The notes under the pieces are model-generated. The model had not been told where the DNA came from. It saw only the letters and a list, made by a program, of their open reading frames with translations, and searched no databases. The position numbers and the translations under genes are program-made. Shown here piece after piece: positions 1-18,274 of a stretch of DNA of 21,027 bases. Numbering within the stretch: position 1 is the stretch's first letter; each line of letters starts with the position of its first letter. Origin of the DNA: a virus; the IMG/VR virus record IMGVR_UViG_3300047668_000866, positions 1 through 21,027 of that record; one strand, 5' to 3'.

Positions 1-575
1 TGTGTGAAAATCAGTTTGACAGGTTCGTTTGTTTCACCGATCTCACCACTGGACTAAATGACAACATAGATTGTCTTCCTATAGATGGATTGGGTAACTG
101 GGAAAAAATATCTCTCCTCCACAATAGCTTTGATGGAGATAACCTATACCTTGACTTGGATGTCATCGTACAGGGTAATCTTGACCCGTTATTCGCGTTG
201 TGTGATGAACCTACCATATGTGAGACATATTGGAAAAACTTCGGGGGTGAGTGGAACTCCAGTGTTATGGCATGGAACAAGTCTAATGCAAGTCACATAC
301 CAGAGTATTTCTTTGAGAACTATGATTATAACTTGCATAAATATAACGGTAAGGATGATAACTTTTTATATGATGAGAACCTATTCAAGAGAACCTTTCC
401 TAAAGGGTTGATATACTCTTTTCTTGGCGGCGTAGATGTTGAATCAGATACTTCCCCAAGGGCCCATCAAATAAAACCAGATTACCCAGTTGTTCTTTTG
501 AATGGGCAAAATGAAGTCAACTACAATTTGAGACAAAAATATTATGATGCACTTTCTTTGCATAAAATGGGGTAA
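1..575 (+). CDS. GT-A-type glycosyltransferase, 5'-truncated by the window edge
   Basis: The reading frame is open from the first complete codon at position 3 to a TAA at 573..575, so the true start lies outside the window. The visible 190 residues contain a CFTD segment near residue 10, a DLD motif (residues 51-53, YLDLDVIVQG) of the metal and nucleotide-sugar binding type, an NSSV segment, a DDN segment and a YSF segment. The three other plus-strand glycosyltransferases share the same blocks in the same order. By family it should transfer a sugar from a nucleotide donor; donor and acceptor cannot be read. It overlaps the next gene by 32 bases, so the two are probably translationally coupled. 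Assignment as a glycosyltransferase is firm; the exact family (GT8-like or other) is not. Confidence 0.85.
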   Translation, partial: CENQFDRFVCFTDLTTGLNDNIDCLPIDGLGNWEKISLLHNSFDGDNLYLDLDVIVQGNLDPLFALCDEPTICETYWKNFGGEWNSSVMAWNKSNASHIPEYFFENYDYNLHKYNGKDDNFLYDENLFKRTFPKGLIYSFLGGVDVESDTSPRAHQIKPDYPVVLLNGQNEVNYNLRQKYYDALSLHKMG

Positions 576-3276
576 CAAGTACTCTCCAGAATATGTAAAC
601 AATCTCTACAAAATGGTTCAGCAAAACTACTCCAAACGGTTTAAGTTTATATGCTACACGGACGAACCAGAGGGCATAGAGAAATCTATCAAGATTCGAC
701 CTATTCCAAATGTAGACCCCCTGCATCCAAAGTACTGGTTTGGCCAAGAAAACTTCTGTTGGGATAGAGCAAAGTTTCTTGTCTTGAACTCCCATCATTG
801 GTTGAAGACAAAGGGGCCTTTCTGTTACCTAGATTTAGATGTAATAATCCAAAACAACATCGATGAGATAGACGAACTATCCAAATCCCCGCACATGCTT
901 TACTCTAACTGGGAAGACCCTCGCGTACTAAAGGATAGAAGATTTAGTGACATACGGGGAAGTTTGTATAACTCCAGCGTAATGTTATGGTGTACCGACC
1001 AAGGCGAAAAGATTTACAATGATGTAATGAAACACAAAGATACTGTGTTTAAGACTTTCTTTAAAGGTACTGACAACTATTATCCCTACAGAGAACACGA
1101 TGTAGTCGGTGATAACTATTGGACTTTCTTGCCTGATGATTGGGTGTACTCGTATAATAGGGGAAGAACATATCCAGATGACGTAACACAACATCTATAC
1201 AGAGAGAATTCTAAGTTTTGTATATTTGAAGATTCTATTGGCGGCAAAAATAAGAACAACCTCAAACCACACGAACTGAGAGACTACAATCTTTTAATCC
1301 ACTGGCATGGCAAAACAGAATTTGAAAGACTCTGGTTACCCAAATTTCCCGACAACTTTTTCGATAAGAATAAACACACGGATAGAATTGATACCCTGAT
1401 TGAAAACGCAAATGAGTACGACCCATTTGTAAAACAGATTGAGGCTAGACACAAATCAACCATCGATGAATTCAGCAATGATTTGATTTCTATGCATAAG
1501 AAGTTTTTAGCAGACTTCCCAACAGACCCATTGTTACTCAGTGGAGATGAATCATTGTATTGGAATAAAGATGCCGATGGTATCTATGAATTCTACGAGG
1601 ATAGATTCGTCTACAAGATGCACAAAGTTGTATTTAATATCCTTGAAGAGAAGTTTAAGAAAGATAACCCCAAGATTAAAAGTGATTGGGAACAGTACAA
1701 CAACTCGTTTAACAATATCAAAAACTGGTCTAAGTTTGATTCCATGTCGGATGATACCCTAGAAAAGAATTATATGGATGCGAATATTGTGAATGGCATT
1801 CGTTCCATGATAGAAGAGAACGACTTGGTATCTCTTGCCGATAAGATGATTGAGTATTTTCCCGAACTAGATTTGCTCTTTGAAGGCACAGTGTCACAAA
1901 TAAAAGAAGCCTTTCCAGAGATAGAGAAAGAAATATCTGACCTGACTTTCATTCGACAGATAAAACCAGAACATAGGAATACAATCAAGGAGATATATGA
2001 TACTGGTGATATGATTTCCATGCATAAGAAGTTTTTAGCAGACTTCCCAGAGGACACACTTCTTATCAATGGCAGTCAATCCTTGTACTGGAACAAGAAT
2101 GTGGATGGTATATACAACTTCTACAAAGAAAGATATATTGCTAGACAACATGCGGTTGTTTCGGCCGAACAGGTTGTTCATGGCCCAGTGAGATATTTTT
2201 GGAACATTACTAACTACCAATGTTTTGCATTGTATCGGAGACTGTGGCACAAGAATGTTCTACCAAAACTCAAAGACGAGTTTATGAACAATGTGAAACT
2301 CTATGGTATGCAGCGATTGTTCTGGGACGCGAGTAATGAGGATACACAACAATTATATAAAAGATACTACATCGATAATCTCAAAGAACTCTTTTACAAA
2401 CAGGATTACGAGGCGGTATTTGAAAGACTATATAACATCATACCAAAAAATGACCTGTTAAACATTTTAAAACAGGACAAGACATCGGATGATGATACCC
2501 TAGTAAAGTATTTTCAAATGCATGGTGAACAATACAGTGACATGTACAAGGGATTGTATGAAGATGGCTCACCGGAAGGAGCGTTAATTCAACTCAGTAG
2601 TTCAAGAAATGATACGGATGACGAATACAATGACATCTTCGTAACTGGTCACGAACACACTTTATCATCTATCAAAAAGATATTCGATAGATACGGTGTG
2701 AGTTGGGTGACATTGATGTGTGAAATAAGTGACCCGACCAAGGCGCTTTGGTTTGAAGACATCTGCAAATATTTTCGCAAGAAAAATGTCACGGTGCATG
2801 TTCAGACGTATGATAAAAGTTATCTCAAACCAGAATGGGTTGACGATATCGAATATATAGATCATCCTCAACTCTCTGAGAATATGCCAGTTATAAGGAA
2901 AACGATAGCAAGTGATATCCCAGTTGACTTAGAAACACTGAAAATATTTAAGAAGAAAGATGAGGTAAGGAGACCAAAACCCAAGGCGAAAAAAGCAGAA
3001 CCAGTGTGGTGTGATGCTCGAAAGAGTGGTTACTTCTATATTAGTTCTGACGGTGGTGCATACCCATGCGCTTGGACTGCTAGAGATGTATTAGAGAATA
3101 GGGTATTGCCATACCACCCCATCGACTACACATACAATAGTAAGTACAATAATTTAATCCATTTCACCGTGGGCGAGGTTATATATAATAATGACTTTGA
3201 AAATATAAGTGAAAGTTTAAAGAGGAATCCTTTGAATATTTGTAATAAAAAGTGTGGTGGTTGCCATGCGAGTTAA
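544..3276 (+). CDS. Glycosyltransferase fused to a repeat region and a C-terminal SPASM-like Fe-S domain
   Basis: A 910-residue protein in three parts. Residues 1-285 are a GT-A glycosyltransferase: KWGNKY near residue 8, CYTD at 37-40, DLD at 97-99, NSS at 143-145, DN at 177-178, YSYNRGR from 202 and HWHG at 253-256. Residues about 300-690 are helical-looking and carry repeats: D313-V356 and D489-I532 are near copies, and two weaker copies follow. Residues about 692-800 have short strands (IFVTGHE, WVTLMCEI, VTVHVQTY) like part of a radical-SAM barrel, but no CxxxCxxC motif exists in the protein. A Lys/Pro-rich linker then leads to Cys823-x13-Gly-x4-Cys842 and Cys900, 904 and 907 at the C-terminus, which fits the first half of the SPASM motif plus a closing cysteine cluster. 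The start is ATGATG at 544 or 547; no strong Shine-Dalgarno is seen. The GT call is firm; SPASM-like is a motif-level call. Confidence 0.85.
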   Translation: MMHFLCIKWGNKYSPEYVNNLYKMVQQNYSKRFKFICYTDEPEGIEKSIKIRPIPNVDPLHPKYWFGQENFCWDRAKFLVLNSHHWLKTKGPFCYLDLDVIIQNNIDEIDELSKSPHMLYSNWEDPRVLKDRRFSDIRGSLYNSSVMLWCTDQGEKIYNDVMKHKDTVFKTFFKGTDNYYPYREHDVVGDNYWTFLPDDWVYSYNRGRTYPDDVTQHLYRENSKFCIFEDSIGGKNKNNLKPHELRDYNLLIHWHGKTEFERLWLPKFPDNFFDKNKHTDRIDTLIENANEYDPFVKQIEARHKSTIDEFSNDLISMHKKFLADFPTDPLLLSGDESLYWNKDADGIYEFYEDRFVYKMHKVVFNILEEKFKKDNPKIKSDWEQYNNSFNNIKNWSKFDSMSDDTLEKNYMDANIVNGIRSMIEENDLVSLADKMIEYFPELDLLFEGTVSQIKEAFPEIEKEISDLTFIRQIKPEHRNTIKEIYDTGDMISMHKKFLADFPEDTLLINGSQSLYWNKNVDGIYNFYKERYIARQHAVVSAEQVVHGPVRYFWNITNYQCFALYRRLWHKNVLPKLKDEFMNNVKLYGMQRLFWDASNEDTQQLYKRYYIDNLKELFYKQDYEAVFERLYNIIPKNDLLNILKQDKTSDDDTLVKYFQMHGEQYSDMYKGLYEDGSPEGALIQLSSSRNDTDDEYNDIFVTGHEHTLSSIKKIFDRYGVSWVTLMCEISDPTKALWFEDICKYFRKKNVTVHVQTYDKSYLKPEWVDDIEYIDHPQLSENMPVIRKTIASDIPVDLETLKIFKKKDEVRRPKPKAKKAEPVWCDARKSGYFYISSDGGAYPCAWTARDVLENRVLPYHPIDYTYNSKYNNLIHFTVGEVIYNNDFENISESLKRNPLNICNKKCGGCHAS
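1492..1521 (+). repeat. 30-base exact direct repeat, copy 1, inside the fusion gene
   Basis: Begins ATGCATAAGAAG and ends GACTTCCCA; identical to 2020..2049, 528 bases (176 codons) downstream and in the same frame. It encodes MHKKFLADFP. Protein similarity extends further on both sides (residues 313-356 against 489-532) although the flanking DNA has diverged. Confidence 0.9.
2020..2049 (+). repeat. 30-base exact direct repeat, copy 2, inside the fusion gene
   Basis: Second copy of the repeat at 1492..1521, base for base identical over 30 bases and preceded by a near-identical codon run (GATATGATTTCC against GATTTGATTTCT). Confidence 0.9.
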
Positions 3277-4078
3277 TGTAGTATGTGCTAAATGGGGAGA
3301 CAAGTACGGCCCACATTTTGTTAATCGCCTTTATAACATGTCTAAACGCAATACACCCACGACAATGGATTTCCATTTCTACTGTTATACCGACAATGCT
3401 GAGGGATTTGACCCCGATATTAAAGTTATCCCATTCCCAGACATCCCTAACATCCACCCAAAATACTGGTTCGGCGCAGATGACTTTAAGTATGGCATGG
3501 CGCGTTGTTGGGATAGACCAAAAACCTTCGTGTTTAACACGCACAATTTTGCCGCAGATAAACCAACTGGACGTTTCATCTTCTTTGATTTGGATATAAT
3601 AATCCAAGGTGATATCACGCCTCTCTTAACGTACAACACCGAACAACCAACTAAGATGCGGTCTTGGTGGCAAGACCCTAGACCAATGAAGACCAGACAA
3701 TTCAAACTGTCTCATGGTGCATACACGAATGGCAGTTGTCAAGTGTGGAGTGATGATCAGGCAGAACCTATCTGGAATGATGTTCTAAAAAATCAAGAAA
3801 AGATTTGGTTTACCTTCACAGACGGCACGGATAATTACCACTCTTGGAGATGGGGAGAGTATGGTGCAAAACTTTGGGACAACTTCCCCTCGCACATGGC
3901 GTACTCATATAATAGAGGGCGGTCATGGGATGAAGATGATTTAAATATTGGTATATACAGACCGAACTGTATACTCTGCGTATTCAATGTTGACCTATTA
4001 CCATTTGAAGATGAAAGTAGAGGTACTATAAAACAGGATGAACTCGCAGATCCTAAACTATTGGAGCATTGGAGATGA
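3266..4078 (+). CDS. GT-A-type glycosyltransferase
   Basis: A 270-residue single-domain protein, closely related to the N-terminal part of the upstream fusion protein. Shared blocks are KWGDKYGP near residue 9, CYTD at 40-43, HPKYWFG at 64-70, CWDRPK at 81-86, DLD at 108-110, NGS, TDNY and YSYNRGRSW. It ends at DELADPKLLEHWR, which aligns with the end of the glycosyltransferase domain of the fusion (HELRDYNLLIHWHG), so it is a complete domain. I chose the ATG at 3266 because it gives the same short lead before KWG as the paralogues; a GTG at 3254 is an alternative. It overlaps the upstream gene by 11 bases, and its stop is an ATGA overlap with the next gene. Sugar donor and acceptor are unknown. 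Confidence 0.85.
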   Translation: MRVNVVCAKWGDKYGPHFVNRLYNMSKRNTPTTMDFHFYCYTDNAEGFDPDIKVIPFPDIPNIHPKYWFGADDFKYGMARCWDRPKTFVFNTHNFAADKPTGRFIFFDLDIIIQGDITPLLTYNTEQPTKMRSWWQDPRPMKTRQFKLSHGAYTNGSCQVWSDDQAEPIWNDVLKNQEKIWFTFTDGTDNYHSWRWGEYGAKLWDNFPSHMAYSYNRGRSWDEDDLNIGIYRPNCILCVFNVDLLPFEDESRGTIKQDELADPKLLEHWR

Positions 4079-4233
4079 AAACGTACTGGAGATTGTGGGC
4101 CAAGAGTCTGGGTGAGAAGGAAGGAAACACCGACATCGAGGCAGATAAGATTGCAATGATTAGAACTGTCGTGGTACTCGTAAATTTTATTACATGTTTC
4201 TTTATAATTGCAGGAAATGTCCACCAATGGTAA
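4075..4233 (+). CDS. Small single-pass membrane protein (52 aa)
   Basis: Starts at the ATG of an ATGA overlap with the preceding glycosyltransferase stop and ends at TAA 4231..4233. It begins MKTYWRLWAKSLGEKEG, with an aromatic, amphipathic N-terminus, followed by an acidic patch (NTDIEAD), IAMIRT and one hydrophobic segment at about residues 31-47 ending in GNVHQW. From memory, small proteins of this shape (xYWxLWxxxLGEK at the front, xRT then a hydrophobic stretch at the end) occur in marine T4-like phages without a known function. The coupling on both sides and the low chance of such a coherent frame support a real gene. A membrane location is inferred from the hydrophobic stretch only. 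Confidence 0.75.
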   Translation: MKTYWRLWAKSLGEKEGNTDIEADKIAMIRTVVVLVNFITCFFIIAGNVHQW

Positions 4234-4907
4234 TGAATATTTACACGGTAAAATGGGGTGAGAAATACAATCACCAACATGTAAACAAAATCTATGAAGC
4301 GTGTCTAGAGTTTGTGACTTGCGACTTTAATTTCTTTTGTCTGACAGAAAATCCAAAAGGATTGGATGAGAACATTACCCCGTTAGCTTTGCCGGGCGGA
4401 AACAAACTGGCTAAGTGGTGGAACAAGATGTATCTCTTTGATACTAGTATTGTCTCCCAGAAGGGAGAGAAGATGTTCTTTGACATCGATACTATACTAC
4501 AACAAAACATAGACTCAATTGTGAACTACGAACCAGAAGATAATCTTTGTTTCGTGAAGACATGGTGGCACGACTTAGAATCTTCTTATAAAAACACTAG
4601 ACACATTCCGCATAAATATACCGATCTAAACTCTTCGGTTCTTAGGTGGAATGATGAGTTGAACACGGAAGAGATTACAGAATACTTTAATAAACATCGA
4701 AAACAAATACTATGGTACTATCGTGGTCTTGACAACTTCTTCTACAACAGAAGAATAACCAAAATCAAATTGTTTCCTATCGGTTGGGTGTATAGTTTTA
4801 ACCAAGGCTATATATTTCCACACGACATAGAAAAACATACCTACAGGGAACTACCATACATTTGTATTTTCGACTCAATGGGAAAAGGTGAAGATGTTAA
4901 ATTTTAA
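4227..4907 (+). CDS. GT-A-type glycosyltransferase (divergent paralogue)
   Basis: 226 residues from the ATG at 4227. It shows VKWGEKY near residue 8, FFCLTENPKGLDENI, a WW.K segment, FFDIDTILQQNID with DID at 86-88 in place of DLD, LNSSVLRWN, GLDNFFYNRR and GWVYSFNQGY. These are the same ordered blocks as in the other plus-strand glycosyltransferases, but it is more divergent and shorter. An AGGAAA at 4212..4217 is well spaced for the ATG at 4227. A second ATG at 4233 overlaps the preceding stop as TAATG and is also possible; an in-frame ATG at 4194 would overlap the small membrane-protein gene by 40 bases and is less likely. It overlaps the next gene by 14 bases. The substrate is unknown. 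Confidence 0.83.
   Translation: MVMNIYTVKWGEKYNHQHVNKIYEACLEFVTCDFNFFCLTENPKGLDENITPLALPGGNKLAKWWNKMYLFDTSIVSQKGEKMFFDIDTILQQNIDSIVNYEPEDNLCFVKTWWHDLESSYKNTRHIPHKYTDLNSSVLRWNDELNTEEITEYFNKHRKQILWYYRGLDNFFYNRRITKIKLFPIGWVYSFNQGYIFPHDIEKHTYRELPYICIFDSMGKGEDVKF
4885..4890 (+). promoter_or_regulatory. Ribosome binding site that selects the ATG at 4894
   Basis: AAGGTG lies three bases before ATG 4894 within GGAAAAGGTGAAG. The in-frame GTG at 4888 is part of this purine-rich site itself, so the ATG two codons later is the better start for the methyltransferase-like gene. Confidence 0.6.
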
Positions 4908-5577
4908 TTTTTTGAATAATTTGAAACACTGGGGTGAAGCGTTACATATTATAGAAAACAAAATGCCCCATAAACTAACAGATTTTAGGCAGTCTCTACA
5001 AGAAAATAATATGGAGGCCTCAATCTGGTTGGTTGAAGAACTTAAAAAATACTTAGAAGAATATTATACCAAACAAGGAAACCTCAGAATATTAATACTG
5101 AATTCTTGGTTGGGTGTTCCTATGGTTCCTCTTCTATGTGAGAATTTAGATGTAGGTCAGATACACCTAGTCGATATGGATGAGGAAAGTATTACTCTGT
5201 CCAAGTCATTCCACAAATATTACGCCCAAGAGAAGTTTGTAAACATCCGACATTGGAACATGGACATCCCATTTGAGTTTGAGAATCTAAACAAGATTGA
5301 TGTTGATGTGGTAATTTGTATTCACACGGAACAGATGTATCCGTTAACAGAACTCAACGGCAAGAATCCCAACGCAGTCTATGCAATGCAGAATTCAAAC
5401 GTGGTTGAAGAGATGTATGGCATCAACTGTGTCAACTCTATAGACGCACTGAAGGAACAGGTGGGTATATCAGAGTGTGGGTACGAGGGAACCAAACAAC
5501 AAGTATATTACTCGTGGGAAGGAAAGAAAGACTTTGACCGATATATGATTATCGGCCAGAGAGAAGGTTTCTTCTAG
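4894..5577 (+). CDS. SAM-dependent methyltransferase-like protein
   Basis: 227 residues. The order of elements fits a class I Rossmann methyltransferase: a strand and turn at about residues 66-80 (LRILILNSWLGVPMVPLL) in the place of motif I, an acidic strand end (IHLVDMDEES) where the ribose-binding acid is expected, NMDIPFEF, then a hydrophobic strand DVDVVICIHTEQMYPL in the place of motif IV. The C-terminus FDRYMIIGQ resembles the RFM.IG ending I recall from a methyltransferase-like family in marine T4-like phages. The glycine pattern of motif I is degenerate, so activity is uncertain. It is the last gene of the plus-strand run and its TAG shares a CTAG palindrome with the stop of the convergent gene. 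The substrate is unknown; a glycan or nucleoside is possible from context but not shown. Confidence 0.6.
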   Translation: MLNFNFLNNLKHWGEALHIIENKMPHKLTDFRQSLQENNMEASIWLVEELKKYLEEYYTKQGNLRILILNSWLGVPMVPLLCENLDVGQIHLVDMDEESITLSKSFHKYYAQEKFVNIRHWNMDIPFEFENLNKIDVDVVICIHTEQMYPLTELNGKNPNAVYAMQNSNVVEEMYGINCVNSIDALKEQVGISECGYEGTKQQVYYSWEGKKDFDRYMIIGQREGFF

Positions 5578-6197
5578 ACTGCATTTATGGTGGTGATGTC
5601 TTTTATCATGTCCTCCCACAATCCTTTGTGGGGGATAACAAACCCAAATGTTTGTCTAGGGCCGGTACTTCCAGCGGTGTGCCAGTATGGTTCTTCTTTA
5701 CCACCATAATACCCTATCTTGATATTCCAACCCACTGGGTCAGTGATGGTCTCGACTTTGCCGTCCTTTACATGCCGGAAGAATCCAGTGCCTTCACTGT
5801 GAGACATAAGAATATTATAGCCAGGCACATCCCAATTGTTATGCCACGCCATGAAACCACCGGCGGGATAATAGACATGGACGGCATTAAATTTCGCACA
5901 TAACCAAGCAGACAACTCCGCGCATGTAGATAAAGATTTCCGCATAAGTTCTTTGTTGACGCCATGTGTATTGTGAAAGTCGCATACCTTTGCAAACTCC
6001 GGCGGGCCCTTGTGGTCTAATCCCTTAGACTGAACTTCTTTGAGATATTCTTCTGAGGTATAATATTCCATGCCCCTATCACCGAATCGTCTTTCGTCCA
6101 AGGGTAAATCATTGTCGAACGAATGTTCATCGTAGAAATCCATCCACTCGTGAAGAATGTCCAACAACTCTGGGTTTACTACCTTCAATGTTTCCAT
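5574..6197 (-). CDS. 2-oxoglutarate/Fe(II) oxygenase-like protein with HxN in place of HxD
   Basis: 207 residues. The C-terminal half (from YYPAGGFMAWHNNW) looks like a double-stranded beta-helix oxygenase: His119-Asn-Asn121 where HxD/E is expected, then HSEGTGFFRHV, GWNIKIGYYGG, His173 in EPYWHTAG 54 residues later, and Arg181 eight residues after that (RQTFGFVIP), in the usual place of the 2-oxoglutarate carboxylate-binding arginine. Similar GWHTN-containing proteins are, as I recall, common in marine T4-like phages, so Asn at the third position may be a family trait rather than a local loss. Activity (hydroxylation or another oxidation) and substrate are not established. The start ATG lies 13 bases inside the end of the upstream glycosyltransferase gene, so the two are coupled. 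Confidence 0.6.
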   Translation of the reverse strand: METLKVVNPELLDILHEWMDFYDEHSFDNDLPLDERRFGDRGMEYYTSEEYLKEVQSKGLDHKGPPEFAKVCDFHNTHGVNKELMRKSLSTCAELSAWLCAKFNAVHVYYPAGGFMAWHNNWDVPGYNILMSHSEGTGFFRHVKDGKVETITDPVGWNIKIGYYGGKEEPYWHTAGSTGPRQTFGFVIPHKGLWEDMIKDITTINAV

Positions 6198-6904
6198 TTA
6201 TCTATATGCCTATTCAGTAGATAATGTCTAATTATAACTTCGGTGCCATCCAATTCTTCTGGTTTCTGACCGACAACAAAATTCCACCTAGCATCGGGTG
6301 ACTCAAACTCTCCAACAGTAACGGTATCTTTGTGTGCCGTTTTGTTTAGCAAGTACCACATCGTAAATGTATCCCACGGTTTGACCGATTCTGGATACGG
6401 ACTGACATCATGCATCGGCGCACTTTGAATTAAATAATACTTGTACCAATCATCCATCAACTTTGTTGTTGCTTTGTTCTTGCGATATACAAAGATACCG
6501 CAGTGGTATTTCATACTCTCATCATCATTCAGTTTTGTTATCTTTGCATTGTAGGGGCGGTTCAGTGTGAATATCACATCGTTGTCTTTTAGATGGTCGA
6601 ATGCATATCTAATGTCTTCGTGTTCTATCATAGTGTCACAGTCTAGATACATCGTGACATCGTATGGACTTGTAGACAACGCCCACAACTTTGCTCGGTT
6701 GTTCATAGGCATATCATTGCCCAACCCGTCATGCGTTCTTATCTGGTCAAAGAGTTTGTAGTCATCGAGTTCTACCCAATCTGCGTGAGTGAATAGAGTT
6801 ACGTTAGCTTCTGGATAGAAATCTTTGAGGGACTCTGCGGATTTTTTCGCAGCGATGTAATAATCTTTTCTAAGAGAAGCTACATATATGTAGCCCTTAG
6901 TCAT
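6185..6904 (-). CDS. Glycosyltransferase, DCD-type
   Basis: 239 residues from the ATG at 6904. The N-terminus YIYVASLRKDYYIAAKKSAES, then VTLFTHADW, MNNRAKLWAL at 67-76 and MYLDCDTMIEHEDI with DCD at 88-90 form a GT-A fold with a metal-binding DxD, closest in layout to GT8-like enzymes. Further conserved-looking parts are YHCGIFVYRK, PWDTFTMWYLL and the C-terminal IIRHYLLNRH. It differs from the plus-strand glycosyltransferases, lacking the KWG.KY lead and YS[YF]N block, and belongs to another subfamily. The ATG at 6904 forms an ATGACTAA overlap with the upstream stop and has AGGA 13 bases before it. A longer start at 6973 would overlap the upstream gene by 77 bases and adds residues unlike the family. 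The substrate is unknown. Confidence 0.8.
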   Translation of the reverse strand: MTKGYIYVASLRKDYYIAAKKSAESLKDFYPEANVTLFTHADWVELDDYKLFDQIRTHDGLGNDMPMNNRAKLWALSTSPYDVTMYLDCDTMIEHEDIRYAFDHLKDNDVIFTLNRPYNAKITKLNDDESMKYHCGIFVYRKNKATTKLMDDWYKYYLIQSAPMHDVSPYPESVKPWDTFTMWYLLNKTAHKDTVTVGEFESPDARWNFVVGQKPEELDGTEVIIRHYLLNRHIDKWKH

Positions 6905-7403
6905 TTTCGGCAATGTCCTGCGCGGCGAGTTCTGGGAACGTACCATCTGGTTTGAATGTATTTGGTGAGTCATAGAGTGCTTCTGACTGTAGTAACATGG
7001 TTACATAAGCCTGAACTTCTAACTGAGTCTTTGATTTGCGAATCAATTTCTTGAATCGTTTATCGTCTGAGTCTTTGATGGCAGGGATTTCAAATGCTTC
7101 CAATTTCATATTGAACAGGGCTTCTTGCATCAATCGGTTCTTGTGAACTTCTCGTTGCTGGTCTTCCTTCTCTGAATTCTCTTCGCAGGCAATTACATGG
7201 GCATCGGTGTTTGATTGAATATCTTCTTCACTGAACTCTTCCAAGATGGCAGTGAAGTCGGCATTAACCAATCCTTCTGTTATGTTACCAACATTGATTT
7301 GAGCGGGCCGATATGATTCACCAACCAATATTTCACAAAATAGTGAACGGGTTTCTTTATCTATCCATCGGGGGTTGCGGTACTTCGGAGTGTTTTCGGT
7401 CAT
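6897..7403 (-). CDS. Unknown protein, possible tail-fibre assembly factor
   Basis: 168 residues, acidic, with no signal peptide or membrane segment. It starts with an aromatic/proline segment (KYRNPRWIDKETRSLFCEI) and PAQINVGN, followed by an acidic region with alternating charges (about residues 54-90, EEFSEEDIQSNTDAH) and a helical C-terminal half ending TFPELAAQDIAEND. I do not recognise the family. It lies directly downstream of the fibre genes, where T4-like phages often carry fibre chaperones or adhesin-assembly proteins, so that role is suggested by position only. It has its own candidate late promoter at 7455..7462 and a GAGGA ribosome binding site. It overlaps the next glycosyltransferase by 8 bases. 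Confidence 0.7.
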   Translation of the reverse strand: MTENTPKYRNPRWIDKETRSLFCEILVGESYRPAQINVGNITEGLVNADFTAILEEFSEEDIQSNTDAHVIACEENSEKEDQQREVHKNRLMQEALFNMKLEAFEIPAIKDSDDKRFKKLIRKSKTQLEVQAYVTMLLQSEALYDSPNTFKPDGTFPELAAQDIAEND

Positions 7404-7423
7404 AATAAATCCTCATAATTTAA

Positions 7424-7455
7424 ATAGGGGCGGTGTTGATATCACCTACCCCTAT
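7424..7455 (-). terminator. Hairpin overlapping a late promoter; candidate terminator
   Basis: Inverted repeat in the gap between the 324-residue and 168-residue genes: ATAGGGG (7424..7430) pairs with CCCCTAT (7449..7455), and GGTG (7432..7435) with CACC (7443..7446), around a 7-base loop. On the minus strand it is followed by TTTAAATTAT, only a weak U-tract. It sits just after the stop of the 324-residue gene and could end or process the tail transcript. The outer arm shares bases with the late promoter octamer. Confidence 0.5.
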
Positions 7456-7462
7456 ATTTATA
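7455..7462 (-). promoter_or_regulatory. T4-type late promoter, TATAAATA
   Basis: Exact match to the T4 late promoter octamer on the minus strand, in the 65-base gap before the 168-residue gene. Expected initiation is about six bases downstream, near 7449, giving a leader of about 45 bases that includes GAGGA. It would drive the 168-residue gene, the glycosyltransferase and the oxygenase-like gene. Confidence 0.65.
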
Positions 7463-7468
7463 ACACAT

Positions 7469-8443
7469 TTAAGCGGTTCGTATGAACAGTTGTTTCGTTT
7501 CCTGAGTAGCACTAGATGTCAGTACAGTTGCACCAGCGTAAGTACCAGTGTATGTACCAGAGTATGAACCGGCATAAGCACCGTTAAGGAATCCAGCAAA
7601 GAATCTATTGTAGTAACCAGTATAAGAACCAGTGTAGTTTCCAGAGTAGTTCACATTAGAGATACTCTTTAACTGGTCAGTCATGGTTGAACCCATCTGT
7701 ACCCAAGTTCCAGTTGCAGAAGGTGAACCAGTTTGTAGTAAGTATTTTCCAACACCACCAGCAATGATTCGGTTTCTGAATGCGGGAACTAATGTTTGTA
7801 GGTTTGCAGCAGACATTTCCTGCGGTTCACCTGCCGTAGCGGCTTTCAATAGAATGTTCGTGTCTGTACCAGCAGCAGTAGTGGGCGCAGTTTTTTGGTA
7901 AAGATTGTAAGCTACGTCTGTTCCATCAACCTGAGTTTCAGTAAACGTGTACCGACTCGTCCAAGTTCCACCGGAGGGTGAAGATGTTCCAATTTTGTAT
8001 TGGCCAACCGTATTTGCATCCTCAGCGCACATTGCAGTTATAACGAGGTCTAGTACTTCTGTATCTAGTTCCGTGTCTGTGGCTTGTTCTACGGACGTTC
8101 CTGTCCACCTCAGAGGGTTGATTTGAGAACTTTCACTAACAGCACCAGTAGCCTGATTCAATCGATAGACGGTAGTTGTTATAGCTCCACCAGCGGGGTG
8201 TGTTCCTACCGTTTCATTTCTTTCTCTGTTTGAGAATGTTCCTACTTCGGTTGCTGCGGCAGAACCACCCGTAACTATTTTGAGTTCGCCAGTACCGTTA
8301 CCATCAGTATCGGTGGCAAATTTTAGAGTCACCACTCCCGCTACTTGGTTCTTTATTTCGACTGCGGTCAACTCGCGGAGTCCTTGAAGTCCTCCCGCTG
8401 CAGCTGGATAAGCTCCTGCTTTTAATGTTACTGGGCCTGCCAT
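7469..8443 (-). CDS. Virion fibre-type protein with C-terminal Tyr/Gly tetrapeptide repeat
   Basis: 324 residues, low in cysteine, rich in Thr, Ala and Gly, as in phage fibre proteins. The N-terminus MAGPVTLKAGAYPAAAGG is followed by LTAVEIKNQVAGVVTLKFATD and beta-rich segments such as WTSRYTFTETQVDG. Residues 201-260 include MSAANLQTLVPAFRNRIIAGGVGKYLLQTGSP, then a tryptophan segment. Residues 266-303 form about ten Y-x-G-x units, and the chain ends KQLFIRTA. I recall similar Y-x-G-x stretches in structural proteins of marine T4-like phages; their role is unknown to me. AAGGAGAA precedes the ATG and the gene starts 11 bases after the 281-residue fibre gene. A receptor-binding or decorating role on the tail is inferred. 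Confidence 0.75.
   Translation of the reverse strand: MAGPVTLKAGAYPAAAGGLQGLRELTAVEIKNQVAGVVTLKFATDTDGNGTGELKIVTGGSAAATEVGTFSNRERNETVGTHPAGGAITTTVYRLNQATGAVSESSQINPLRWTGTSVEQATDTELDTEVLDLVITAMCAEDANTVGQYKIGTSSPSGGTWTSRYTFTETQVDGTDVAYNLYQKTAPTTAAGTDTNILLKAATAGEPQEMSAANLQTLVPAFRNRIIAGGVGKYLLQTGSPSATGTWVQMGSTMTDQLKSISNVNYSGNYTGSYTGYYNRFFAGFLNGAYAGSYSGTYTGTYAGATVLTSSATQETKQLFIRTA
7535..7648 (-). repeat. Tandem Y-x-G-x coding repeat
   Basis: Codes for about ten consecutive tetrapeptides (YSGN YTGS YTGY YNRF FAGF LNGA YAGS YSGT YTGT YAGA) near the C-terminus of the 324-residue protein. The aromatic residue sits at every fourth position, and two units in the middle are degenerate. Confidence 0.85.
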
Positions 8444-8454
8444 TCAAGTTCTCC

Positions 8455-9300
8455 TTAATTAAGTAACGTACCAGATGAATTATAGACGGCGAGGCCTCTA
8501 TGTTTAATCCAATCCGTTGCATCTTTACATGTTAAAGTAAATGTAGTCTTAGCAGGTAGTGTTACAGCAGCGTTTGCCGATCCACCATCAATCTTATCGG
8601 AACTCGCGGGATACAATTTACAGTCTGTGGTGGTAGTATTCGATACAACAAGATGTAAACCAGCAGCGGCGGTTGGTAAAACAACACCCTGCGTGGCAGC
8701 ACCGACAGTGCCGATTACATTCATTGTTTCTGTCAACCCAGTTGCATCACCTTGACCAGAACCGGCAGTAGATACCGCAGCAGTCACACCAAATTGTGTT
8801 GAACCAAGTAATTGAACACTTGTATTTACTATCAAGTCTGCGACATTGGTTCCACCAGAACCTACTTGTCTCCATCCACCAGTACTAACACCTATCAACT
8901 CAGCACCATTAGCAGTTACTACTGATACGGGGGCGTTTGCAGAACCACCATCGATGGTTTCTGTAGAAGCGGGATATACTTTGATAGTAGCCCCACTCAC
9001 ATTGTAGATGTTTATTACCAGACCAGCAGCGGCAGAAGGTAGAAGTATACCTTGGTTCAATGAAGCAGTCGATACGATATTATATGTTTTAGTTAATGCG
9101 GTTGCGTTACCCTGAGTACTACCAGCAGCGGATACAGTGGCAGCGATGCCAAATGTAACATTACCACTAGCAGTAAGAGTCCCAACCACAACATTGTTTC
9201 CAGATTCATACTTATCATTGTTGAGGTTACTAAAGTTAGTATCCACCTCAGTATTGGTAAGTGGAGAACCCTTGGAAGCTCTGAGTGTTATAGTAGTCAT
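8455..9300 (-). CDS. Tail fibre protein with duplicated beta domain
   Basis: 281 residues. The N-terminus (ASKGSPLTNTEVDTNFSNLN) is the short fibre-type lead seen in many marine phage fibres, where a xLTNxExDxNFxNLN segment precedes the shaft. Two copies of one beta domain follow, residues 50-138 and 170-258, each with the order FG.(A)ATVS.AG..QG.AT.LT, an LP[ST]AAAGL segment, a YPAS..IDGGSANA segment and a closing hydrophobic strand. The chain ends HRGLAVYNSSGTLLN. The pattern of a polymer-like LPxAAAG strand, a YPAS turn and IDGG is reminiscent of domains in T4 gp10-type baseplate/fibre proteins, which is a weak resemblance. AGGGAC before the ATG is the ribosome binding site, and a GATAAATA promoter candidate sits 16 bases upstream. 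Confidence 0.8.
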   Translation of the reverse strand: MTTITLRASKGSPLTNTEVDTNFSNLNNDKYESGNNVVVGTLTASGNVTFGIAATVSAAGSTQGNATALTKTYNIVSTASLNQGILLPSAAAGLVINIYNVSGATIKVYPASTETIDGGSANAPVSVVTANGAELIGVSTGGWRQVGSGGTNVADLIVNTSVQLLGSTQFGVTAAVSTAGSGQGDATGLTETMNVIGTVGAATQGVVLPTAAAGLHLVVSNTTTTDCKLYPASSDKIDGGSANAAVTLPAKTTFTLTCKDATDWIKHRGLAVYNSSGTLLN

Positions 9301-16675: not shown

Positions 16676-18274
16676 TTAGAACGTAAATATTATTTTTACT
16701 GTCTCTACCTGACCCTCTTCCCTTGTAATAGGTTTTCTATTATCAAAGTAGATTACGTCACCAGAATCAGTAGATATTTCTGGGTTCGCAAGACTATTTA
16801 TAGGTAAACCAGAGAGTCCTTTTGTAGTATTTGTGATAGTATCACTTACAGAGATACCCTTGGTGTTTTCTTGTAAGTACACACTATCATCAGTGCCATT
16901 ACCCGTAGTGTCTCGCAATTGCGCGACTGAGAATTTACCACCACTCGATGTCTCTATACTATCATCAGCACCATAATTATTTGGGTCATTGATAGTAACA
17001 ATGAAATGGGGTGAACCTGTTGCATCATCGAACAATGTTGACAGTCCGTACTTGGTAATGTTTTTTATCAGTCCGACTTGTCTATAGTCGTTACCTGTAA
17101 TTATGTCTCTTGAATCATTATCAAAAGAAACAGTCATCCCGACCCGTTTGCAAAACAATTCTTTTTGCGGGTGAGACCCGTGTCCCTCAATCGGTGAGAT
17201 GACAACTCTGAAAGTAGCATTAACTCCACTACCAGAGGCCTGCACCAGTGTAATAGCAGCGTTAGTATATCCACTGCCTGGAGCCGTTATGGTAACACCT
17301 GTGATATTACCGTTTGAATTCACTACAGCAGCGGCAGCTGCGCCAATCCCATCACCAGTTATAGTTAAAGTGACATCACCAGCAGTATAGTCAGTACCTT
17401 GCGCGGAAACAACTATCTTGTCGATGGTTCCTTTTACAGCAGTCCCCTCAACATTGGTTTGTAGTGTCGGAGTATCAGTACTACCCAGTGTCGCATCTGC
17501 TTTTGCGTTTGCTCCACCACCGCCTGTTAGTTTAATGTCAGCGAAAGTGTAACCACTACCTCCAGTAGATATGGAGATAGATGATACCGCATTGCCAGTA
17601 AGTGTAGCATTTGCGGTAGCACCTGTCCCATCCCCCTGTATGGTGACCGTGGGTGGTGAGGAATAACCACTTCCTCCGGCAGTAACAGCGATACTATTAA
17701 GTTCACCGTTAATATCGAAAGATGGTTGACCAGCACCAGATACTTTCCTGACTGGCATATAGGCGGTAGAGAGGAACTTAGTCCTATCAGACGCACCTAG
17801 TTGGAATAGAAACTTCCACTTATATAAATCAGCGGTTGTAAATATCTCCGTGCCAGTACTGGAAGGTTTAGTTGTACTTTGACCATTGTTGTTATTATCA
17901 ATACACTTGTAAACATTAAATGCATCTGTTAATACATAAAAGTTTGCAGCCTGCAATGATGTAGCGCCGGAATTGGCAGTATTACTGGGAGAATAATTAT
18001 CATCATAATTATCGTATATAGTTCCAGTAGCCCAATCAATTCGTTTCGCTAACATGGCGGTGTCAGCAGACTGTACCCTTTTTACAAAGAGTATTGTGTC
18101 TCTAAACTGTTGTACGTCCAACCGATTATCATAAAATGTATCGGGTGAAGTATCATCCGTCCATGTATCAGCACGCGAGGCTGCCATATAGAACTTGTCG
18201 TTTCCGTTATAGATGTCTCTATAAAACGATCTAGCCTGATGAAATCTCGCCTGTTCTAATAACAGAATGGCCAT
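16676..18274 (-). CDS. 8: Baseplate wedge protein gp8
   Basis: 532 residues against 334 in T4. The N-terminal part (ARFHQARSFYRDIYNGNDKFYMAASRADTW) matches the T4 gp8 layout of a helix, an FYNSI-like segment and a xGRSEPW-like segment. Then come RIDWATGTIYDNYDD, VYKCID and YKWKFLFQL, which match RRDW, VYRCLD and VWEYLFEI in T4. Residues 360-400 (PIEGHGSHP, YRQVGLI) correspond to the FRQISII...AHPND region, and the C-terminus GDVIYFDNRKPITREEGQVE...IIFTF matches GEMIYMENRPPI...INILFTF. Residues about 190-355 are an insertion of four glycine-rich beta repeats absent from T4 gp8. The protein acts in the baseplate wedge with gp7, gp10, gp6 and gp53. AAGGAG lies eight bases before the ATG. Confidence 0.87.
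   Translation of the reverse strand: MAILLLEQARFHQARSFYRDIYNGNDKFYMAASRADTWTDDTSPDTFYDNRLDVQQFRDTILFVKRVQSADTAMLAKRIDWATGTIYDNYDDNYSPSNTANSGATSLQAANFYVLTDAFNVYKCIDNNNNGQSTTKPSSTGTEIFTTADLYKWKFLFQLGASDRTKFLSTAYMPVRKVSGAGQPSFDINGELNSIAVTAGGSGYSSPPTVTIQGDGTGATANATLTGNAVSSISISTGGSGYTFADIKLTGGGGANAKADATLGSTDTPTLQTNVEGTAVKGTIDKIVVSAQGTDYTAGDVTLTITGDGIGAAAAAVVNSNGNITGVTITAPGSGYTNAAITLVQASGSGVNATFRVVISPIEGHGSHPQKELFCKRVGMTVSFDNDSRDIITGNDYRQVGLIKNITKYGLSTLFDDATGSPHFIVTINDPNNYGADDSIETSSGGKFSVAQLRDTTGNGTDDSVYLQENTKGISVSDTITNTTKGLSGLPINSLANPEISTDSGDVIYFDNRKPITREEGQVETVKIIFTF
16795..16802 (-). promoter_or_regulatory. Intragenic TATAAATA, possible late promoter for the giant structural gene
   Basis: Exact late octamer near the 3' end of gene 8, 133 bases before the DUF4815-type gene. 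It is in frame with codons for Ile-Asn-Ser-Leu, and two other intragenic octamers (9384..9391 and 19012..19019) also encode Ile-Asn-Ser-Leu, so codon choice alone may explain it. Confidence 0.25.

Follow-up and report, generated by a model that had tools for sequence, protein, structure and literature searches.

A phage glycosyltransferase joined to a putative radical-SAM/Twitch remnant that keeps its auxiliary cysteines

Could a phage glycosyltransferase carry the auxiliary iron-sulfur module of a radical-SAM enzyme whose own catalytic site has been lost? This question is raised by a DNA stretch of 21,027 nucleotides (hereafter the window), positions 1 to 21,027 of the IMG/VR virus record IMGVR_UViG_3300047668_000866. 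We infer that it belongs to a T4-like marine phage, because of its gene content and because the nearest named glycosyltransferase matches are in Kyanoviridae records. The original prediction, made from the letters alone, described one of its genes as a glycosyltransferase fused to a SPASM-like domain without a radical-SAM core. The features of this gene are as follows.

544..3276, + strand: GT-Twitch fusion protein, 910 aa, one continuous ORF
544..1353, + strand: GT-A/GT8-like glycosyltransferase domain, residues 1-~270 (PHROG 1962, invariant DxD, Foldseek)
1372..2568, + strand: alpha-helical linker, residues ~277-675, differing in length among relatives (models; relatives of 439-914 aa)
1459..1632, + strand: helical repeat unit, copy 1, residues 306-363 (self-alignment score 200)
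1981..2160, + strand: helical repeat unit, copy 2, residues 480-539 (self-alignment)
2575..2943, + strand: putative radical-SAM barrel remnant, residues ~678-800 (two AlphaFold models, Foldseek, profile match)
2605..2628, + strand: loop after beta1, expected site of CxxxCxxC, reading R-N-D-T-D-D-E-Y (688-695; by eye)
3001..3264, + strand: Twitch-like (truncated SPASM) domain, residues 820-907 (Pfam SPASM; 0/150 shuffles)
3010..3012, + strand: Cys823 codon, ahead of the beta-hairpin (Cys in 60/60)
3067..3069, + strand: Cys842 codon, past the beta-hairpin (Cys in 59/59)
3241..3264, + strand: Cys900-x3-Cys904-x2-Cys907, past helix 883-894 (Cys in 56/56 each)

The fused ORF with a cysteine-bearing C-terminus is real. 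The same layout recurs in many independent contigs: a GT8-like domain (~1-270), then helical repeats that form a linker of varying length (~277-675), and last the C-terminal module (~678-910). These are single ORFs of 731-914 aa or, in a short form, of 439-481 aa, and therefore an assembly artefact is ruled out as the source of the fusion. The lengths of the relatives fall into four groups (439-481, 731-737, 807-838 and 907-914 aa), and in the shortest, such as L024, L090 and L091, the alpha-helical linker is almost missing and the glycosyltransferase is directly joined to the C-terminal module. IMG/VR was scanned with the C-terminus (23 loci), with its profile (50 loci) and with the Twitch profile (117 loci, 80 of them kept), these sets overlapping, and the conservation counts rest on 62 distinct viral proteins extracted from these relatives. 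Two scans of GTDB genomes, both relying on short exact peptide patterns, found no C-terminal module; the C-terminus had no match in 50,697 deposited phages at the sensitivity used, and a PDB sequence search with it returned nothing meaningful.

Two observations concern the linker itself. Residues 520-594 of one relative (L012, at 6159-8672), within the helical linker, have a weak Pfam match under the cut-off to DUF6557 (E 6e-4). Between L119 and L121 the linker (residues 290-670) is near-identical, with dS 0.27, whereas the glycosyltransferase, barrel and Twitch parts have diverged to dS 1.5-2.3, which suggests domain-wise recombination between phages.

The N-terminal glycosyltransferase, previously drawn as residues 1-285, is GT8-like over residues 1-~270. 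It matches the PHROG 1962 glycosyltransferase (E 3e-4) and contains DLD 97-99, NSS 143-145, KGxDN 174-178 and HWHG 253-256, of which D97-L98-D99, the metal-binding DxD motif of GT8/GT-A enzymes, is invariant in 52 of 52 sequences. Against Pfam the domain has no match above the curated cut-off. Foldseek with the full-length model finds glycogenin and LgtC (prob 0.5-0.75), the glycosyltransferase region being modelled at low confidence. Like these GT8 enzymes, the fusion has the DxD motif, and its predicted structure gives GT-A fold matches of modest probability; unlike them, it adds a linker and a Twitch module and stays below the curated Pfam cut-off.

At the other end of the protein, the five cysteines lie exactly where they had been placed, as Cys823-x13-Gly837-x4-Cys842 followed by Cys900, Cys904 and Cys907. 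They do not vary freely among homologues, each being 100% conserved wherever covered (56-60 distinct sequences). It should be noted that Cys37 and Cys72 of the glycosyltransferase domain are likewise invariant among relatives, and consequently cysteine invariance alone is no proof of metal binding. Pfam SPASM (PF13186) was found in 14 of the 15 C-termini tested (best E 1.1e-4) and, in whole-record searches, at E 9.5e-6 to 7.6e-4, all under the curated cut-off of 21.5 bits (the window scores 16.4 bits; the highest-scoring relative has 20.7 bits, with E 9.5e-6 in a search of a single record). The fusion family was also compared with A3, the intact radical-SAM/SPASM family of the phage protein L044, with 150 column-shuffled profiles as the control. 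The Twitch region aligned in register over 86-87 columns, and its score was reached by 0 of 150 shuffles.

Is it then a SPASM domain? SPASM is defined by the seven-cysteine motif CX9-15GX4C-CX2CX5CX3C-C and holds two clusters, while Twitch is the truncated form with one cluster, whose ligands are cysteines around a beta-hairpin and cysteines after helix alpha2' (PMC6231123). The SPASM resemblance originally proposed is above chance in Pfam, shuffles and Foldseek, and the window's first pair, C-x13-G-x4-C, does fit the motif. However, position 837 holds Gly in 30 relatives, Ser in 26 and another residue in 3, and the conserved cysteines are five, not seven. The predicted order, in a region of low model confidence, is C823, strands 830-833/838-840, C842, helix 843-852, helix 883-894 and C900/904/907, with cysteines flanking a beta-hairpin and further ones past helix alpha2'. 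Because of the five cysteines and this predicted hairpin/alpha1'/alpha2' order, a one-cluster Twitch appears a better fit than a seven-cysteine SPASM, and the Twitch half, with its five cysteines all kept, would probably bind one Fe-S cluster, possibly zinc.

It is improbable that the cysteine cluster is a structural zinc site and the module a scaffold with no redox or recognition role. Five cysteines are able to bind Zn, and roughly half of the relatives have another residue in place of the SPASM glycine, but the Pfam and fold matches are Fe-S radical-SAM families and the cysteines follow the Twitch ligand order (before the hairpin, after the hairpin, after alpha2'). A zinc ribbon at the family level was rejected: no Pfam zinc family matched the C-termini.

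Ahead of the Twitch-like domain, residues 692-800 had been thought to look like part of a barrel, and the models suggest a putative remnant over ~678-800. AlphaFold models were made for residues 673-910 and for the full-length protein and compared with the PDB by Foldseek. About four of the six strands of a (beta/alpha)6 barrel are modelled, mostly at high confidence (beta1 679-683, helix 707-714, beta2 721-725, helix 737-746, beta3 750-755, beta4 768-771), and the top Foldseek matches are radical-SAM proteins, none under E 1e-3. For the 673-910 model, five SuiB entries stand at the top (prob 0.97-0.99), BlsE (prob 1.00, rmsd 2.6 over 86 columns) and CteB are within the first ten, and HydE is also matched. 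The full-length model returns five SuiB entries, BtrN (prob 1.00) and BlsE (0.99) before glycogenin and LgtC, and in a search of predicted structures from viruses the 11 best matches are all radical-SAM or Fe-S proteins. Thus the predicted structures find radical-SAM SPASM/Twitch enzymes first. Since no match passes E 1e-3 and the TM-scores are low, the support from these models, whose Twitch part has pLDDT ~35-80, is a consistent ranking with no single decisive match.

Could this resemblance be convergent, a generic beta-alpha-beta domain followed by an unrelated cysteine-rich tail? Response-regulator and Rossmann-like folds do appear lower in the Foldseek list of the 673-910 model, and the score of the half-barrel profile against A3 is modest, being reached by 6 of 150 shuffles (91 of 150 in a control against the other, wrong half of the barrel); global profile alignment (hhalign -glob) of the half-barrel gave nothing. 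Yet the Twitch profile score is matched by none of the shuffles, radical-SAM/SPASM/Twitch proteins lead three Foldseek searches, and the usual domain order of radical-SAM enzymes is a barrel and then Twitch, as here. We therefore consider convergence very improbable.

Matching IQLSSSRNDTDDEYNDI of the fusion, ungapped and by eye, against IEVTTYCNAACPQCPRN of the intact family places the three cysteines of the latter at 688, 692 and 695 in the loop 684-699; the profile alignment proper spans beta2-alpha2-beta3 only, and the loop equivalence is thus our inference. At these columns none of 58 sequences has a cysteine, the residues being R/Q/T/S/H/I, G/N/D/K/S/E and F/Y, respectively, while N689 and D690 are invariant. 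Further relatives also lack CX3CX2C in the barrel, so the motif of active radical-SAM enzymes is absent after beta1. The earlier statement that the protein has no CxxxCxxC holds for the barrel loop but not for the protein as a whole, as C900-x3-C904-x2-C907 has that very spacing. This triplet is ruled out by position as a working radical-SAM motif, because it lies at the last residues, after the Twitch helices and outside the barrel loop. Judged from these alignments, and provided that the barrel loop is rightly identified, the radical-SAM half is shown to be without the [4Fe-4S]/SAM site and so would be unable to generate radicals.

Is such a module still functioning? For five pairs, dN/dS is 0.03-0.07 in the glycosyltransferase, 0.04-0.05 in the linker, 0.06-0.07 in the barrel and 0.015-0.09 in Twitch, some dS values being near saturation. 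These values, 0.015-0.09 across the domains, rule out decaying debris in every domain and point to a C-terminal module that is, on sequence grounds, under strong constraint and functioning. The invariant cysteines, the Pfam SPASM match, the Foldseek ranking, the lack of cysteines at the CxxxCxxC site and the purifying selection together support the reading of a glycosyltransferase joined to a decayed radical-SAM/Twitch protein that retains its auxiliary-cluster site. The decay and the kept site proposed originally are thus upheld, whereas a full SPASM domain is not, the remains being Twitch-like with one putative cluster and about four of six barrel strands.

How does this protein compare with known systems? 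Like the Twitch enzymes BtrN, SkfB and MoaA, it has cysteines flanking a beta-hairpin and further cysteines past the second helix, and SkfB also has five conserved cysteines (PMC6231123). Unlike these enzymes, the fusion has no CxxxCxxC in the barrel, a truncated barrel and a fused glycosyltransferase. With the SPASM enzymes SuiB, CteB and PqqE, the last also being listed by Foldseek, it shares C-x13-G-x4-C, but it has five cysteines rather than seven and no active radical-SAM core. The phage L044 family (A3), found in one related phage record, aligns with the fusion in Twitch/SPASM and in beta2-alpha2-beta3 of the barrel, but keeps an intact CNxxCxxC, and its partner is a dehydrogenase-like domain instead of a glycosyltransferase. 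The C-terminal domain of L044 is short-chain-dehydrogenase-like by eye, and relatives of the radical-SAM/SPASM part of L044 (L097-L115) occur in several viral contigs. The mycofactocin cluster has the radical-SAM/SPASM protein MftC and the glycosyltransferase MftF in one peptide-modification pathway (PMC7491314; PMC3023750), there as separate proteins with an active radical-SAM enzyme, here as one protein with an apparently dead one. A published glycosyltransferase-fused Twitch with a lost radical-SAM site and kept auxiliary cysteines was not found in a non-exhaustive search of the open-access literature.

Then, what could the fusion act on? It lies in a cassette with the following neighbours.

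3..575, + strand: cassette glycosyltransferase, incomplete at the window edge, ~215-250 aa long in relatives (PHROG 1962; synteny)
3254..4078, + strand: cassette glycosyltransferase, 41% identity to fusion residues 3-259 (similarity, synteny)
4194..4907, + strand: cassette glycosyltransferase (PHROG 1962, E 3e-9)
4888..5577, + strand: cassette methyltransferase/spermidine-synthase-like protein (10/10 members match Pfam weakly, with E 0.002 at best; synteny)
5574..6197, - strand: cassette conserved protein with invariant H119, N121, H173 and R181 (2-oxoglutarate-oxygenase-like by eye only)
6185..6973, - strand: cassette protein with a DxD, resembling a glycosyltransferase by eye (no family match)
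6897..7403, - strand: cassette conserved small protein (no family match)
7469..8443, - strand: conserved neighbour whose C-terminus carries Y-[TSA]-G repeats, a candidate target for glycosylation (synteny)
16676-18274: baseplate-wedge protein, further along the window

On one strand the order is glycosyltransferase, GT-Twitch, glycosyltransferase(s) and methyltransferase-like gene; on the opposite strand it is the 5574-6197 family, the DxD protein, the small protein and the Y-[TSA]-G repeat protein. Of the 27 loci that were compared, nearly all keep this cassette within the reach of their contigs. One neighbouring ORF has a weak Pfam GT8 match. Among 80 loci of the 5574-6197 family, 57 have the C-terminal module and the other 23 contigs end before it, as judged from coordinates. 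The 5574-6197 protein has 256 IMG/VR relatives and no Pfam match of value; solved structures gave no match of value for this family or for the 4888-5577 family. The number of Y-[TSA]-G repeats differs greatly among relatives. The same phages also have a cluster of radical-SAM proteins (L027, L032, L034, L037; G001:C1 ~112-120 kb, and likewise G002), in which a SPASM-like cysteine domain precedes the radical-SAM core, opposite to the usual order.

The location beside a tail module and the conserved cassette are compatible with protein glycosylation, though no proof of it, and glycosylation of tail proteins is our best guess for the role of the cassette. The second, putative metal-binding site, which is kept unchanged, suggests, from sequence, that it may have been re-used to recognise or hold the sugar acceptor. 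We accordingly propose, at somewhat less than an even chance, that the dead radical-SAM/Twitch remnant is the acceptor-binding module of a glycosyltransferase whose cassette glycosylates an adjacent tail protein. A GT8-like glycosyltransferase would be connected, either with no spacer or by a helical-repeat arm of varying length, to a remnant that has probably lost both the [4Fe-4S]/SAM site and some of the barrel. This remnant, as a non-catalytic module, would present part of a protein to the active site of the glycosyltransferase. The target could be a tail protein encoded alongside, the Y-[TSA]-G repeat protein at 7469-8443 being one candidate. That acceptor recognition depends on the metal cluster, the phage enzyme decorating its own tail proteins, is a doubtful proposition.

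The same fusion and dead module might instead block superinfection by modifying the O-chain, a glycan on the surface of the host, with the module anchoring or stabilising the protein or binding the sugar-nucleotide or a carrier, and this too we regard as rather unlikely. Some of the structural matches, namely BlsE, BtrN and DesII, act on sugars or sugar-like substrates, in favour of this alternative. The host recognition cluster of pelagimyophages contains tail fibres, GT8 enzymes and radical-SAM cassettes, and host O-chain modification has been proposed for the GT8 enzymes (PMC7029224); such modification needs no protein-binding module, and therefore counts against the acceptor-module explanation. 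However, the cassette strictly adjoins one set of tail genes, a weak objection since a host-recognition cluster may gather both.

What auxiliary clusters do in SPASM/Twitch enzymes is a matter of debate, and a natural module that keeps the auxiliary site without radical chemistry isolates that question. If the remnant is indeed an acceptor-binding module of the glycosyltransferase, it would further suggest that marine T4-like phages have a system for protein glycosylation.
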